Source of the DNA: Agromyces cavernae
Lineage (GTDB): Bacteria; Actinomycetota; Actinomycetes; Actinomycetales; Microbacteriaceae
Assembly (NCBI RefSeq): GCF_021044935.1
Contig: NZ_JAJNMP010000002.1
Location: 310,001 to 374,000 of the forward strand
DNA: 64,000 bases
Direction: 5' to 3'
Shown here: positions 4,425 to 10,305 of the stretch, in pieces
Layout: each line of letters starts with the position of its first letter
Numbering within the stretch: position 1 is the first letter of the stretch
Position numbers and translations under genes: made by a program
The notes under the pieces: model-generated
What the model saw: the letters and a program-made list of their open reading frames with translations, nothing else
Databases searched by the model: none
Told to the model about the DNA's origin: nothing

Positions 4425-5498
4425 TCAGCCGACGGCACGCATGAACGCACTGAGCTCGTCGGCTATGAGCTGCGGTTCCTCGAACGCGAGGAAGTGACCG
4501 CCGCGGCCGGGTGCCGAGTACTGACGGATGTCGCTGGCGGCGCGCTCGGCGATGGAGCGCGGGAAGAGCTCGAACGGCGGCTCGTGGCTCTGGGTGACGG
4601 CAACCGGAACCGTGATCCGCGGGCGCGGAGTGTTGTGCGGGTAGTCGAGGTACTGGCGGAACGACGAGCCGATGCACCCGGTGGTCCAGTAGAGCATGAG
4701 GATCGTGCAGAGACTGTCGCGGTCGAAGCGCGATTCGAGATCACCATCGCAGTCGCTCCAGGCACGGAGCTTGTCGATGATCCATGCGGCGAGTCCGGCG
4801 GGGGAGTCCTCCAGTGCGGCTGCGATCGTGTCGGGCCGAGTGCTCATGATCCAGCTGTAGCCCGAGTCCGACTCGTCGCGGTCGTCGTCGGCGTCGAGGA
4901 AGGCCTGCTCCTCGGCGGTGATCGGAGACGCGTCGAAATCGGCGGGGAAGGGACCGTGGATCACGTGGAGTCCGGCGACCTCCTGCGGGTACATGGTGGC
5001 GAGCCATCCGGATGCCGCGCCGCCGATGTCGCCGCCGAACGCGAAGTAGCGTTCGTAGCCGAGGGTTTCGGTCATGAGCGTGTGGAAGGACTCGGCGATG
5101 GCCGCACGGGTGAGCGGGCCATCGGGGAGCGCAGAGTAGAGGAATCCGGGGAGGGATGGCACGACCACGTCGACTTCGAGCAGGTCGGTGAGCGGGAGCA
5201 TCTCGACGAAGCTGCTCGGCCAGCCGTGGGCGAGCAACACCGGAGGTCGGCTCGAGTCGCGGCGCACGTGCAGGAAGTGCTGCCCACGGTCGATGAAGTG
5301 CGGGTAGGCGTTGAGGCGTGCTTCGGCGGCACGCCAATCGAACTCGTTCGCCCAGTAGTCCACGAGCGACCGCAGGTACGCCGGGTCGGCGCCGGCCTCC
5401 CAGCCGGATGCGGTCGGTGCGGTGAATCGCGTTCGTGCGAGCCGTGCCCGCAGGTCATCGAGCACATCGGGCGCTACGGAGATCGTGAAGGGTTCCAT
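4425..5498 (-). CDS. Epoxide hydrolase family protein (EHN domain, alpha/beta hydrolase)
   Basis: A 357-residue alpha/beta hydrolase with the N-terminal EHN segment typical of microsomal-type epoxide hydrolases (about residues 1-105). The oxyanion motif HGWP is at 91-94. The nucleophile is D157 in GGDIGG, an aspartate rather than serine, as expected for epoxide ring opening. The general-base histidine is H335 in GGHF. It would convert an epoxide to a diol in the cytoplasm. It lies 84 bases downstream of the serine hydrolase gene on the same strand and may be co-transcribed with it. The substrate is unknown. Confidence 0.88.
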   Translation of the reverse strand: MEPFTISVAPDVLDDLRARLARTRFTAPTASGWEAGADPAYLRSLVDYWANEFDWRAAEARLNAYPHFIDRGQHFLHVRRDSSRPPVLLAHGWPSSFVEMLPLTDLLEVDVVVPSLPGFLYSALPDGPLTRAAIAESFHTLMTETLGYERYFAFGGDIGGAASGWLATMYPQEVAGLHVIHGPFPADFDASPITAEEQAFLDADDDRDESDSGYSWIMSTRPDTIAAALEDSPAGLAAWIIDKLRAWSDCDGDLESRFDRDSLCTILMLYWTTGCIGSSFRQYLDYPHNTPRPRITVPVAVTQSHEPPFELFPRSIAERAASDIRQYSAPGRGGHFLAFEEPQLIADELSAFMRAVG

Positions 5499-5582: not shown

Positions 5583-6974
5583 CTAGTCTCGGATTCGGTC
5601 GCCCTCCGACGTGCGGCGGTGCACGCGGCTGTTCGTGTGGAGGTATTGCGCGGCGCCATCCCGGAAGTCGTAGATCGCGACGGTCTGAACATCCTCGAGG
5701 GGGCCGACCGGCGGCATCAGGAAGTGCGTCTCGCTGATGGGCAGGAGTTCGTACGTGATGTGGTCGGGAAGCCCCATGAACTCCGCCTGCATCGGATCGA
5801 GGGCGACCGTAAGGTGCAGCCTCGCACCCTCGGCGGTCACCTCGAACGCCGTTCCCGGACGCTCGTACACACCGACGTATCGTGACGGGTCGAGGGCGAG
5901 CCCGCGGTCTTGCTCCGGGAGCGGCGGAATGGTCACCGTGCCGAGTTCGGCGAGGATCGCGTTGAACACGTCCTTGTAGATTGCCTCACGCTGGCCGCCG
6001 TTCGTCAGGAGAACGAGCGCGAGGTCATCGTCAGGGAGGATTCGCATGCGGGCGTTCTGCCCGATGGTGCTGCCATCGTGCGCGTAGACGGTCGTGCCGA
6101 ACCAATCGCACACCACCAGGCCCAGCGCCCAATGCGGTCCGAACATGTATGGGTCGGGGACCGGCACGCGGGAGGTCATCATCTCCCGTACCGCCGCATC
6201 GGAGACGATGCGAACACCGTTGAGCGCCACGCCGCCGCTCAGGAGAACGTTGGCGAGCGCGAGGACCTCGCCGACGGTGGCGGTCACGTTGCCGCCGGGA
6301 CCGTACGAGCGCGGCAGGTACTCGATCGGAGTCGGGATCGGCCCTTCCTCCTCAGAGCGGATCAGGTGGCCGCTGGCTGTTCGGGTCGCGTCGACATCAC
6401 CGTGCCAGCTGTTCGTGGCGGTGAGCCCCATCGGGCCGAAGAGGCGCTCCCGCATGATGGCGTCCCAAGGCTTGCCGTCGAGGACCTCCATGATCCGGGC
6501 GAGGATCGCGTAACCGAGGGCAGCACTGTACCCGTGAGTGTGACCGACCGGGCTGACCTGCGGCGCGTCGGCGATCTGGGCGACCATTCGCTCATAGACG
6601 TCGGCGCCTTCGCCAGGGTCCCCGTACGCTTCCTCGATGCCGTTCGTATGGTTGAGCAGGTGCCGTGGGGTGACCCGCGCGCTCGCGTCGGGATCGGCGA
6701 CCCTGAACCTGGGTAGATAGGTGCGCACGGGCTCGTCGAGATGCACCATGCCTTCGTCGACGAGCTGCATGAACGCGAGAGCGGTCCACGTCTTCGTGAG
6801 CGACCCGCACTGGAAGACCGTGTCGGCAGCCACAGGCTCCGCGGTGCGGACGTCCTTGATCCCGTACACCAGCTCGGTGACCTCGCCGCGGTGGAGGATG
6901 CCGACGGCCGCGCCCGGCGTCGAGTACTCAGTGAATATCGCTGCGAGCCGCTCTTCCATGCGGTCCAGGTCCAT
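5583..6974 (-). CDS. Serine hydrolase, class C beta-lactamase / esterase-like
   Basis: A 463-residue member of the beta-lactamase/transpeptidase-like family. The catalytic SxxK is S58-L-T-K61. The second motif is Y149-S-A-A-L-G-Y155. No signal peptide or membrane segment is visible, so it probably acts in the cytoplasm as an esterase or peptidase rather than as a resistance enzyme. A C-terminal domain of about 100 residues follows, resembling the beta-barrel tails of EstB-like or D-aminopeptidase-like proteins. The start lies 9 bases downstream of the 85-codon gene, which indicates an operon. Confidence 0.88.
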   Translation of the reverse strand: MDLDRMEERLAAIFTEYSTPGAAVGILHRGEVTELVYGIKDVRTAEPVAADTVFQCGSLTKTWTALAFMQLVDEGMVHLDEPVRTYLPRFRVADPDASARVTPRHLLNHTNGIEEAYGDPGEGADVYERMVAQIADAPQVSPVGHTHGYSAALGYAILARIMEVLDGKPWDAIMRERLFGPMGLTATNSWHGDVDATRTASGHLIRSEEEGPIPTPIEYLPRSYGPGGNVTATVGEVLALANVLLSGGVALNGVRIVSDAAVREMMTSRVPVPDPYMFGPHWALGLVVCDWFGTTVYAHDGSTIGQNARMRILPDDDLALVLLTNGGQREAIYKDVFNAILAELGTVTIPPLPEQDRGLALDPSRYVGVYERPGTAFEVTAEGARLHLTVALDPMQAEFMGLPDHITYELLPISETHFLMPPVGPLEDVQTVAIYDFRDGAAQYLHTNSRVHRRTSEGDRIRD

Positions 6975-6983
6975 CGCACGGCC

Positions 6984-7241
6984 TCACTTGGCCAAACCGA
7001 CCGCGTTGGCGGCGTCGGCTTCGAAATACTCGGTGGTCGCCGCGGGACCGGCGTACTCCTCGAAGAACGCTCGTGCGGCGTCGAGCGAGTCGTGCACGAG
7101 CACATTCACTGCTTTCGTGCCGTCGCTGCTGGCGACCGCCAACACCCACTTCGCGCCCTTCGGAAGCCTCCCGTACGCCTTCTTCAGAGCGCCCCAGAAC
7201 AGGTCTTCGTCGGTGATGGTCGAGATCGCCATGATGTGCAT
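6984..7241 (-). CDS. Small conserved-type protein of unknown function (85 aa)
   Basis: An 85-residue protein with an ATG at 7241 and a GGAGGA ribosome site 7 bases upstream. The pattern (beta-strand, helix with LFWGALKKA, strand WVLAVASSD, strand, helix ARAFFEEY) resembles ferredoxin-like alpha/beta barrels such as the small dimeric monooxygenase or YciI group. No motif secures a function. It is first in a likely operon with the serine hydrolase and is divergent from an HTH regulator across an operator-rich 159-base region. A role in sensing or modifying the same ligand is possible but unproven. Confidence 0.72.
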   Translation of the reverse strand: MHIMAISTITDEDLFWGALKKAYGRLPKGAKWVLAVASSDGTKAVNVLVHDSLDAARAFFEEYAGPAATTEYFEADAANAVGLAK

Positions 7242-7271
7242 CGTTCGTCCTCCAATTGTTGCTGATACTTG

Positions 7272-7369
7272 AAACGCTACGTTGCGTTTGCACGGCGAGC
7301 AACGAAATGCGCCTACGATACATGTATCGTTGCGTGTGAGTGCAGCTGAATGCAACGTGGCGTTGCATT
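7272..7369. promoter_or_regulatory. Operator cluster between the 85-codon gene and the HTH regulator
   Basis: Three inverted repeats lie within 98 bases. AAACGC/GCGTTT with a 6-base centre spans 7272-7289. The perfect palindrome ACGATACATGTATCGT spans 7315-7330. AATGCAACG/CGTTGCATT with a 3-base centre spans 7349-7369. The hexamer GCAACG or its complement CGTTGC occurs five times (7280, 7299, 7328, 7352, 7361). This density is typical of an autoregulated divergent promoter. The downstream regulator is the obvious candidate ligand-binding protein. Confidence 0.72.
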
Positions 7370-7400
7370 CCTGTCGGTGAACGAAATGTGGGGAGGCGCG

Positions 7401-8318
7401 ATGGTCGGGGGCAGGCTCACCTTGGGGGAGCGGCGATCGATCGAGGCCGGCATGGCCGAGGGGCTCGGGTACGCCGAGATCGGCAGGCGGCTCGGCCGTC
7501 CGACCTCGACCATCAGCCGCGAAGTCGCTCGCAACGGCCACCGCCGGTACTCGGCCGACCAGGCGCACGATTCCGCCGCGCATCGTGTGCGCAATCGCAC
7601 CACATCTCCGCACGCGGACGAGTCGGCCGACGAGACACGTGACTTCATCGAGGAGTTCGCCGGAATGTTGGCAGCGACGGGTATGCCGCGAATGGCCTCG
7701 CGCGTATTCACCAGCCTGCTGATATCGGACGCGGGAAGCCTCACCGCAGCCGACCTCGTGCGCGGACTGCGAGTGAGCCCGGCAGCGGTGTCGAGAGCCA
7801 TCGGTTACCTCGAGGGCATGGACCTGTTGAGCAGGCAGGCTGATCACGGTCGCCGAGAACGCTACTTCATCGGCGACGACGTGTGGCTCACCGCGTTGCA
7901 CACCGACTCGACGGCGCATGCCCGCGTTGCGGACGCGGCGACGCGCGGCATCGCGATGTTCGGACCGGAGTCTCGGCCCGGTATCCGACTCGCGGCCATG
8001 GGCCGGTTCTTCGGCGGACTCACCGAACAGATCCGCGGCACCGACCTCGCCGATCCGGCCGTCGGCGACACGAAGTCGGTTCTCGCCGCGCTCGTTCACG
8101 CCCGACGCTCGCCGACCGCCGACCAACTCGCGGCCGCGCTCGGCTGGTCTACGAACCGCACCCTCGCGGCACTTGAGACGATCGAGGGACGACCGGTGCT
8201 CGCCGACCCCTTCGTCGTTCGAGGCGTGGGGGAGCGGTACACCGTGCAACCCCGCCCCGACCGGCTTTCCGCGGACCAGAGGGCTGCCTTGAGCGGAATG
8301 GATCGGCTACCCGACTAG
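7401..8318 (+). CDS. HTH transcriptional regulator: IS30-type N-terminal HTH plus winged-helix domains
   Basis: A 305-residue DNA-binding protein. Residues 5-55 look like the helix-turn-helix of IS30-family transposases (LTLGERRSIEAG, then YAEIGRRLGRPTSTISREV). Residues 77-160 resemble a GbsR/MarR-like winged helix (LRVSPAAVSRAIGYLEGMDL). A third helical segment near 225-285 (LAAALGWSTNRTLAALETI) suggests another winged helix. There is no transposase catalytic domain. I chose the ATG at 7401, which has GGGAGG 4 bases upstream. The ATG at 7350 lies inside an operator palindrome and would add 17 residues. It is divergent from the 85-codon gene and probably represses that operon and itself. Confidence 0.82.
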   Translation: MVGGRLTLGERRSIEAGMAEGLGYAEIGRRLGRPTSTISREVARNGHRRYSADQAHDSAAHRVRNRTTSPHADESADETRDFIEEFAGMLAATGMPRMASRVFTSLLISDAGSLTAADLVRGLRVSPAAVSRAIGYLEGMDLLSRQADHGRRERYFIGDDVWLTALHTDSTAHARVADAATRGIAMFGPESRPGIRLAAMGRFFGGLTEQIRGTDLADPAVGDTKSVLAALVHARRSPTADQLAAALGWSTNRTLAALETIEGRPVLADPFVVRGVGERYTVQPRPDRLSADQRAALSGMDRLPD

Positions 8319-8590: not shown

Positions 8591-9376
8591 TCACACGGAC
8601 GGGTCCCAGGCTGCGAGCTGATCGAAGATACGACGGTCGCCTTCGAACTTCAGCGAATCCAGCGGTATGCGGCCGTAGAAGAACAGGACCAGGTCACTGG
8701 CCGTGCCCCGGGCGGAGGCGTCGGTCGTGTCGGAGTCCTCGCCGGCAGCGGGCGTGAGGCGGGCGACCTGTGCGCCGTCGTGGGACAGCCGCAGGCGCCA
8801 GGAGTGGCCCTCGCTGGCGTGGTAGTCGACGATGGCGGGGTCGTGTGGCCAGGCGACCGTCGTCGCGCAGAGGGTGAACTGGCAGTCGTCGAAACCGTCG
8901 AGGGCGATCTTCTCCGGTATCGGCTGCGGGGCACCCCCGGTGAGCTGGACGTCGTAGGTGTGCACCGCGATCTCGTGGAGCTGGCGCCGCGCCCAGGCCC
9001 CGGAGGTCTGCGGTGACGGCGAATCCTCCCACCATGTCCAGCAGCCGCGATCCGGGCCCGCCTCGCGGAGCACACTTGTCAAGTGTTCGACGGACTCGAC
9101 CCACCAGGCCAAGAGAGCCTCGCGCTCCCGAGGCGCACCCGTGCCGCCTCCCCATGCGGAGTCCTCCGGCGGAGCGTCGGCGGGCCCGGCGGTGACGATG
9201 GCGGCTGCCTTGCGGCGACCCATGCCCACGTGTTGCACGTGATCGAACAGCGTCCGCTCGGGATGGGTCGGCATCTGCATGTCGAGGCTGGGTGCCGCGG
9301 CGACCGCAGCGCGGAAGGCGGCCGACCGTTCGTCGATCAGCCGCAGCTGATCAGGGAACGTGAGAATCATGTGCAT
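8591..9376 (-). CDS. Maleylpyruvate isomerase-type (MDMPI/DinB fold) mycothiol-dependent protein
   Basis: A 261-residue protein of the MDMPI family, in which a DinB-like helical bundle binds a metal and uses mycothiol as cofactor. The metal-site pattern H134-E135-x-x-x-H139-x-x-D142 is visible, with H46/H49 in an earlier helix (DHVQHVG). The C-terminal 100 residues form the usual MDMPI C-terminal beta domain. Mycothiol is the low-molecular-weight thiol of actinobacteria. The reaction is not identified: maleylpyruvate isomerisation is only one activity in the family. The gene stands alone between the regulator above and the XRE-cupin gene. Confidence 0.8.
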   Translation of the reverse strand: MHMILTFPDQLRLIDERSAAFRAAVAAAPSLDMQMPTHPERTLFDHVQHVGMGRRKAAAIVTAGPADAPPEDSAWGGGTGAPREREALLAWWVESVEHLTSVLREAGPDRGCWTWWEDSPSPQTSGAWARRQLHEIAVHTYDVQLTGGAPQPIPEKIALDGFDDCQFTLCATTVAWPHDPAIVDYHASEGHSWRLRLSHDGAQVARLTPAAGEDSDTTDASARGTASDLVLFFYGRIPLDSLKFEGDRRIFDQLAAWDPSV

Positions 9377-9589: not shown

Positions 9590-10192
9590 TCAGCTGTCGG
9601 ATGCGACGCGCGGCCAGGTCCCAACTCCTGGTTCGAAGACACTGAGGGAGAACTTGGCTGCTTCAGAAGTGCGGTTGATGTATGCGTGCGGAACTGCTCC
9701 ATCGAACGTGAGCGCATCGCCGACCGTGAGTGTGAGTGTTTCATCGCCGAGTTCAACGAGCACCGTGCCGTGCTGGACTTGCAGCACTTCCGCTGTACCT
9801 GTGACGTGGGCGGCGGTTTCGTATCGATCGCCTGGCCCGAGGGTCCAGTCCCAGAGCTCGAGCACGTCAGGCGGCGCGGTGCCTCCGACGAGAATGCCCT
9901 CGCCGCCGGCAGTGCCGCGCCAGAGCACTGCGCCTGCGCCGTTGCGGGTGAGCTTGTACGTGTGGGGCTGCGGGGGCTCGACCAAGGCGGGAAGGCCGAT
10001 GCCGAGGGCGTCACTGATCCGCAGAAGCGTTCCGACGCTAGGGTTGACTGCGCCTTGCTCCGCGCTCACGACCATTCGCCGGCTCACGCCGGCGGCCTCC
10101 GCGAGCTGGTCCTGCGTCCAGTTGCGTCTACTTCGTTCCAAACGGACGCGCGTTCCGATCGCGGCGGCCAAGGCCGAGGTGGCAGCATCCAT
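9590..10192 (-). CDS. XRE-family regulator with C-terminal cupin
   Basis: A 200-residue regulator: a lambda-repressor-type HTH at residues 8-65 (WTQDQLAEAAGVSRRMV) followed by a cupin barrel at about 100-185, the usual ligand-sensing layout. It is divergent from the agmatinase gene. An 18-base inverted repeat immediately before its start codon is a likely operator. XRE-cupin proteins beside arginine or polyamine genes often control them, so regulation of agmatinase is a reasonable inference. The ATG at 10192 was chosen because the upstream in-frame extension crosses this operator and has no family similarity. Confidence 0.87.
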   Translation of the reverse strand: MDAATSALAAAIGTRVRLERSRRNWTQDQLAEAAGVSRRMVVSAEQGAVNPSVGTLLRISDALGIGLPALVEPPQPHTYKLTRNGAGAVLWRGTAGGEGILVGGTAPPDVLELWDWTLGPGDRYETAAHVTGTAEVLQVQHGTVLVELGDETLTLTVGDALTFDGAVPHAYINRTSEAAKFSLSVFEPGVGTWPRVASDS

Positions 10193-10193
10193 A

Positions 10194-10211
10194 TGTGCAG
10201 GATACTGCACA
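10194..10211. promoter_or_regulatory. Operator palindrome for the XRE-cupin regulator / agmatinase pair
   Basis: TGTGCAGGATACTGCACA is a 7-base inverted repeat with a GATA centre. It lies 1 base upstream of the regulator start codon and 94 bases upstream of agmatinase. This size and symmetry fit an XRE-type dimer site and imply autorepression. Confidence 0.65.
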
Positions 10212-10305
10212 ATGATGTGATGCAGCGCGCGCACATTCGTGGCACGATGCGTCAGAAACACTCGGCATGACCGAGGGCCGCTAACACGAAGGCGAGGTAT
10301 CGGCC

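Follow-up and report, generated by a model that had tools for sequence, protein, structure and literature searches.

A half-site array resembling IS30 ends beside an HTH_38–MarR regulator gene of Agromyces cavernae points to a possible gene switch derived from a transposon component

The window, i.e., the entire 64,000-nucleotide stretch of Agromyces cavernae DNA that was analyzed, encodes a regulator that lies divergent from genes for a small protein (SM85) and a serine hydrolase (SERH), with an epoxide hydrolase gene following on the same strand as the latter two:

4425..5498, minus strand: epoxide hydrolase (Pfam EHN, 1.4e-28); a neighbor only
5583..6974, minus strand: SERH, serine hydrolase of the class C beta-lactamase / esterase superfamily (Pfam Beta-lactamase, 3.2e-57)
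6984..7241, minus strand: SM85, 85 aa, with 65–82% identical relatives in 5 genomes
7401..8318, plus strand: regulator, 305 aa, comprising HTH_38 (residues 5–45), a linker, a MarR domain (residues 94–151) and a C-terminal extra part

Downstream of the regulator gene, Pfam matches identify a mycothiol maleylpyruvate isomerase-like gene (8591–9376) and a gene for an HTH-cupin regulator (9590–10261).

The preliminary description of this DNA, made from the letters alone, had proposed a regulator with several helix-turn-helix (HTH) domains, one of them of IS30 type, and Pfam bears this out: both HTH_38, the IS30-transposase-type HTH (4.6e-15, 55.5 bits), and MarR_2, the MarR winged helix (6.8e-11, 42.6 bits), score above their cut-off of 27 bits. 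A two-sequence AlphaFold model (pLDDT 61) places the HTH at residues 8–49 and, beyond a loose linker, a MarR-like core at residues 71–213, for which the best PDB match is 4nb5 (E 2.2e-05, in a model of pLDDT 61 overall); the C-terminal part is modeled with low confidence. In the NCBIfam scan of the regulator no model exceeded its cut-off; the IS30 transposase model NF033563 reached 18.2 bits against a cut-off of 80, with only model positions 1–48 of 267 aligned. No description of an HTH_38–MarR regulator or of its operator was recognized among titles and abstract beginnings, a coverage that largely excludes subscription journals, and the available portion of PMC7017128 merely counts HTH_38 as a domain.

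The conserved unit at this locus is the regulator, SM85, and the serine hydrolase. This arrangement is kept in all five closest relatives (G033, G179, G045, G019, and G080), in which the regulator is 53–67% identical and a SERH homolog of 67–74% identity adjoins SM85. Pfam, NCBIfam, and PADLOC contain no match to SM85, and comparison with the PDB gave nothing below E 0.36 by sequence or at E ≤ 0.001 by fold; its predicted fold, of low confidence and covering 84 of 85 residues, is beta-alpha-beta-beta-alpha-beta. The epoxide hydrolase was rejected as a member of the unit because it is absent from the SM85–SERH operon in every one of the five relatives; G080 (locus L042) has a 41% identical homolog, which lies beyond the regulator gene. 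Of the flanking genes that had been assigned to the proposed unit, SM85 and the serine hydrolase are upheld as members, and the epoxide hydrolase is not. A substrate-induced catabolic pathway, combining epoxide and ester hydrolysis, would suit the consecutive placement of the two hydrolase genes on one strand, but is improbable, given that the unit is conserved without the epoxide hydrolase and that, where relatives of the regulator have this type of operator, the genes opposite them are DUF4097, cytochrome P450, ABC, and other genes.

The region between SM85 and the regulator gene (7242–7400) contains five CGTTGC/GCAACG half-sites within 87 bp (starts at 7280, 7299, 7328, 7352, and 7361), and three inverted repeats lie at 7272–7370:

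7272–7289: inverted repeat 1, AAACGCTACGTTGCGTTT, one mismatch
7273..7288, plus strand: putative operator O1, AACGCTACGTTGCGTT, the sole exact match in the organism's own genome
7274..7302, minus strand: putative SM85–SERH promoter, with −35 TTGCTC (7302–7297), a 17-bp spacer and −10 TAGCGT (7279–7274), overlapping O1
7280..7285, plus strand: half-site CGTTGC in O1; of the five relatives, L008 alone has CGTAGC instead
7299..7304, minus strand: half-site, GCAACG on the plus strand, with CAACG or CAATG at this place in relatives
7315–7330: inverted repeat 2, a perfect 16-base palindrome, ACGATACATGTATCGT, kept as a palindrome in none of five close relatives
7328..7333, plus strand: half-site CGTTGC, part of the block ATCGTTGCG, which the window shares unchanged with all five relatives
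7348–7370: inverted repeat 3, GAATGCAACG-TGG-CGTTGCATTC
7349..7364, minus strand: putative operator O3, AACGCCACGTTGCATT, the O1 motif with one mismatch, within the 7348–7370 inverted repeat
7352..7357, minus strand: half-site, GCAACG on the plus strand, 18 bp after the preceding half-site
7361..7366, plus strand: half-site CGTTGC in O3, missing in two of five relatives (L009 and L011)

The dense array described beforehand, with its five half-sites and three inverted repeats including the perfect 16-mer, is confirmed. Dinucleotide shuffles of 7242–7400 (n = 2000) gave a mean of 0.38 half-sites and a maximum of 4, so that none reached five, and outside this cluster no 100-bp stretch of the 64-kb window has more than two. 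Three palindromes scoring at least 14 occurred together in 0 of 2000 shuffles, and one scoring at least 16 in 1.1%. Repeats 1 and 3 represent one site on opposite strands (one mismatch). Across the whole genome of the organism, O1 and O3 are the only places within one mismatch of AACGCTACGTTGCRTT, and the CGTTGC-N18-GCAACG pair at 7328–7357 is the sole exact pair of its kind. The promoter was assigned by eye, as was a comparable geometry in the relatives. Inside the epoxide hydrolase gene (5038–5053, minus strand) lies a near-palindrome, AACGCGAAGTAGCGTT, two mismatches from the operator motif, which is possibly due to chance.

Conservation of the repeats had been named as a check, and it turned out differently for the separate elements. 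When the six intergenic regions (the window and the five relatives) are aligned, ATCGTTGCG is identical in all six rows, O1 is largely kept, AAYGCAA is kept, and the core of repeat 1 is retained in most relatives. Exact half-sites, counting overlaps, number 2 to 4 in the relatives vs. 5 in the window. The perfect palindrome recurs in 0/5 relatives and was rejected as an operator because it is not conserved.

The O1 pattern is specific at exact match only. Outside the organism's own genome, exact O1 occurs in four other family genomes, in every case beside a regulator homolog; of six sites with one mismatch, none lies beside a regulator homolog (3-kb loci). At up to one mismatch, 398 family genomes yielded 12 sites, vs. 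17 for the reversed control. Looser patterns scanned against the organism's own genome were no more, or barely more, frequent than their reversed controls (14 vs. 26 per strand; 10 and 8 vs. 8 and 9; for another pattern, 524 vs. 529 matches), and thus no regulon is claimed beyond the local operator. A related-locus search returned a single locus.

Homologs of the regulator occur in many genera of the class. Using an alignment of 12 regulators as query, 95 of 394 sampled class genomes match at E ≤ 1e-30, a count that takes in MarR-only proteins; when the phylum was sampled, 10 of 296 genomes match at E ≤ 1e-45, every one within the same class. In the class search 92 matches begin at model positions 1–4 (G798:C37 and G821:C44 were left out, and 3 duplicated existing loci), and 104 loci with the N-terminal HTH were assembled. 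Half-site density is 10.3 per kb (322 sites) in the 300 bp upstream of these regulators, vs. 0.70 per kb (213 sites) in the remainder of the loci. Gaps from TTGC to GCAA peak at 41, 18, and 13 (69, 61, and 55 pairs, respectively), and in 100 mononucleotide shuffles no gap exceeded 4 pairs; the 104 loci are related by descent, so that none of these counts are independent. Beside the relatives, the half-site recurs together with its spacing, and the palindromes do not; the proposal of an operator region is upheld as regards the sites and fails as regards the palindromes.

The genes that face these regulators, sorted by similarity to three reference proteins, are diverse. The divergent partner is a DUF4097 protein in 61 of the 104 loci (the reference protein matches Pfam DUF4097 at 3.1e-08), and in these 61 regions the columns that are at least 90% conserved concentrate in the half-sites. 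A further 20 partners are serine hydrolases, comprising 9 near SERH relatives (6 with SM85) and 11 distant ones. Pfam was applied to 17 of the remaining 23, giving 7 cytochrome P450s, 3 ABC transporters, 2 short-chain dehydrogenases, 2 DUF418 proteins, and 3 unmatched proteins; the divergent proteins of L192 and L204 have no Pfam match, and L210 was labeled P450 on the tree by eye, the stretch tested being without a Pfam match. The P450-facing regulator homologs (L206, L207, and L211–L215, by Pfam) each have at least two CGTTGC/GCAACG half-sites upstream. A regulator clade beside distant serine hydrolases (L193, L194, L197–L201, and L205), with the helix RPAST(V/I)MREV, has the sites TTTGCAATG/GCATTGCAATG in place of CGTTGC. 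The ligand-inducible detoxification role that had been proposed for the unit is a guess. The MarR domain and some of the partners (serine hydrolases, cytochrome P450, ABC transporter, and short-chain dehydrogenase) would agree with it, but the majority of relatives have a DUF4097 protein opposite them.

Either of the two DNA-binding domains might read the half-sites. MarR proteins usually bind palindromes adjoining their own gene, and O1 and O3 are palindromic, as would be expected if the MarR winged helix were the reader and HTH_38 a passenger or a domain with another purpose. We consider this rather unlikely. CGTTGC/GCAACG was found in none of the 400-bp upstream regions of 17 MarR-only homologs (those with a locus, out of 43 such matches); the HTH is all that the regulator has in common with IS30 transposases, and most of the IS30 ends tested carry the half-site; and the site varies with the recognition helix of HTH_38, although on few events. 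Among the 104 loci, regulators with an RPTST helix have at least two GTTGC sites in 90 of 91 cases, the single exception lacking any TTGC site, and those without this helix have at most one in 13 of 13. A G precedes TTGC[AG] at 378 of 603 sites for RPTST, 2 of 52 for RPAST..M, and 0 of 21 for RPIST/RPLST. This covariation of helix and site is suggestive only, because the association comprises three changes on the tree, with one independent pair on supported branches.

The conserved TTGC elements could instead be mainly −35 hexamers, kept for RNA polymerase. Two blocks do combine a TTGC −35 with a 17–18 bp spacer and a −10-like hexamer (by eye), but the middle CGTTGC-N18-GCAACG pair has no −10 (also by eye), conservation reaches past the hexamer, the TTGC element is missing beside the MarR-only homologs examined, and a sigma-70 consensus scan of the window region detected no promoter. 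We regard this explanation as very improbable.

Similarity to the half-site is found at the ends of IS30 elements. IS30 elements in relatives were found by the NCBIfam model, and the ends of eleven of them were read by copy comparison or repeat search; ten of these eleven, together with E. coli IS30A, supplied the 22 ends of the test, a minority of the IS30 loci gathered. G528B was excluded since its right end was not resolved, G124 is the only single-copy IS30 locus included, and a repeat search on L090, L092, L096, and L097 gave no usable end pair. With the operator weight matrix, 18 of the 22 ends reach shuffle p < 0.05 and 11 reach p < 0.01, vs. 0 of 14 control ends (IS1, IS2, IS3, IS4, IS5, IS150, and IS911) at p < 0.05. 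In a first version of the test, against random 45-mers, 18 of 22 IS30 ends reached p < 0.01; none of the 6 control ends did so, the nearest to it standing at 0.044. The failing elements, G121 and G650 (neither end at p < 0.05), have altered helices, SPSSV and HHSGI; G643 also has an altered helix (DKSVI), yet its ends match the matrix, so that the helix does not sort IS30 elements cleanly.

Individual ends illustrate the match. Both ends of the G124 IS30 contain GGTCGTTGCAACAC, and the ends of E. coli IS30A (annotated in NC_000913) contain GTCAACGCAACAG and GTCAATGCAACAC, both forms of the half-site AAYGCAACR. Leifsonia xyli ISLxc3, as published, carries GGTCGTTGCAACA (PMC2516522). The end sequences given for ISLxc3 and ISLxx5 do not fill the 16-base window and for that reason scored low; both end tests omit them. 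In the proteins, the regulator HTH is identical to that of the E. coli IS30 transposase at 26 of 61 positions, and at 31 of 66 to the HTH of an IS30 from an actinobacterium, an element with TCGTTGCAAC in its ends. The aligned stretch of an IS30-type reading frame in G551 (L132) begins MPGSRL, vs. MPGGRL at the N-terminus of the regulators (26 of 51 identical); this frame is a candidate for the donor lineage. The IS30 N-terminal domain has reportedly been studied for its binding of the terminal repeats (Stalder et al. in 1990), and Nagy et al. in 2004 are said to have analyzed this domain. IS30 and IS2 transposition are topics of PMC9333248 and PMC3219604.

Since the half-sites resemble the inner portion of IS30 ends, the repeats might be what an inserted element left behind, an origin that we nonetheless consider exceedingly improbable. 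The outer repeat part, GGNGGNTTC, shows no clear enrichment in the upstream regions of the 104 loci (10 matches, vs. a shuffle mean of 5.6 and maximum of 13), for which reason remnant IS30 ends were rejected; moreover, spacing is identical across many loci, and the organism's own genome has no IS30 match.

We consider it likely that 7270–7370 is the operator of a local auto-regulator, the IS30-type HTH of which still reads IS30-end-like sites. The HTH of this MarR-type regulator would recognize AAYGCAACR (CGTTGC on the other strand), which occurs within the inner part of IS30 terminal inverted repeats. A dimer formed through the MarR core would occupy inverted half-site pairs, i.e., CGTTGC-N18-GCAACG and related spacings, with each of its two HTH_38 domains holding one half-site. 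Because O1 overlaps the presumed −10 and spacer and O3 closely precedes the regulator gene, binding should repress both transcription units: at O1 it would cover the −10 (TAGCGT) and spacer of the SM85–SERH promoter, and at O3 the promoter region of the regulator gene, leading to self-repression. Repression would be relieved by a small-molecule ligand of the MarR core.

Taken at the level of sequence comparison, these features suggest that a piece of a transposon was adopted by bacteria as a gene switch. There is perhaps an even chance that a MarR-type sensor captured an IS30 transposase HTH together with its specificity, giving rise to a widespread actinobacterial one-component family with an IS30-end-like operator code; since the captured HTH would have kept its specificity, IS30-end-like half-sites would have become that code. 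If so, living IS30 elements in such cells carry ready-made binding sites for the regulators, a gene could come under their control through insertion of an IS30, and IS30 transposases could touch these operators. If the IS30-type HTH does read the half-sites, this is a bacterial instance of a transposase DNA-binding domain that has become a transcription factor, recognition code included; operators could then be predicted for a regulator family that spans many genera of the class, and there would be a handle on the roles of DUF4097 and SM85 proteins.

Two known systems resemble the one proposed here. With MarR-family repressors (nearest folds 4nb5, 5jbr, and 1ku9) it has in common the winged-helix core, divergent genes, and an operator between both genes; unlike these, the regulator has an additional N-terminal IS30-type HTH and a C-terminal extra part (the latter in its clade), and its putative operator is an array of IS30-end-like half-sites. 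With the N-terminal domain of IS30 transposases and their terminal inverted repeats (IS30A and ISLxc3) it shares the HTH sequence, the recognition helix STISREV, and the half-site; in contrast to the transposase, the regulator has no transposase model match above cut-off, and, in contrast to IS30 ends, its half-sites form fixed-spacing arrays between divergent genes.
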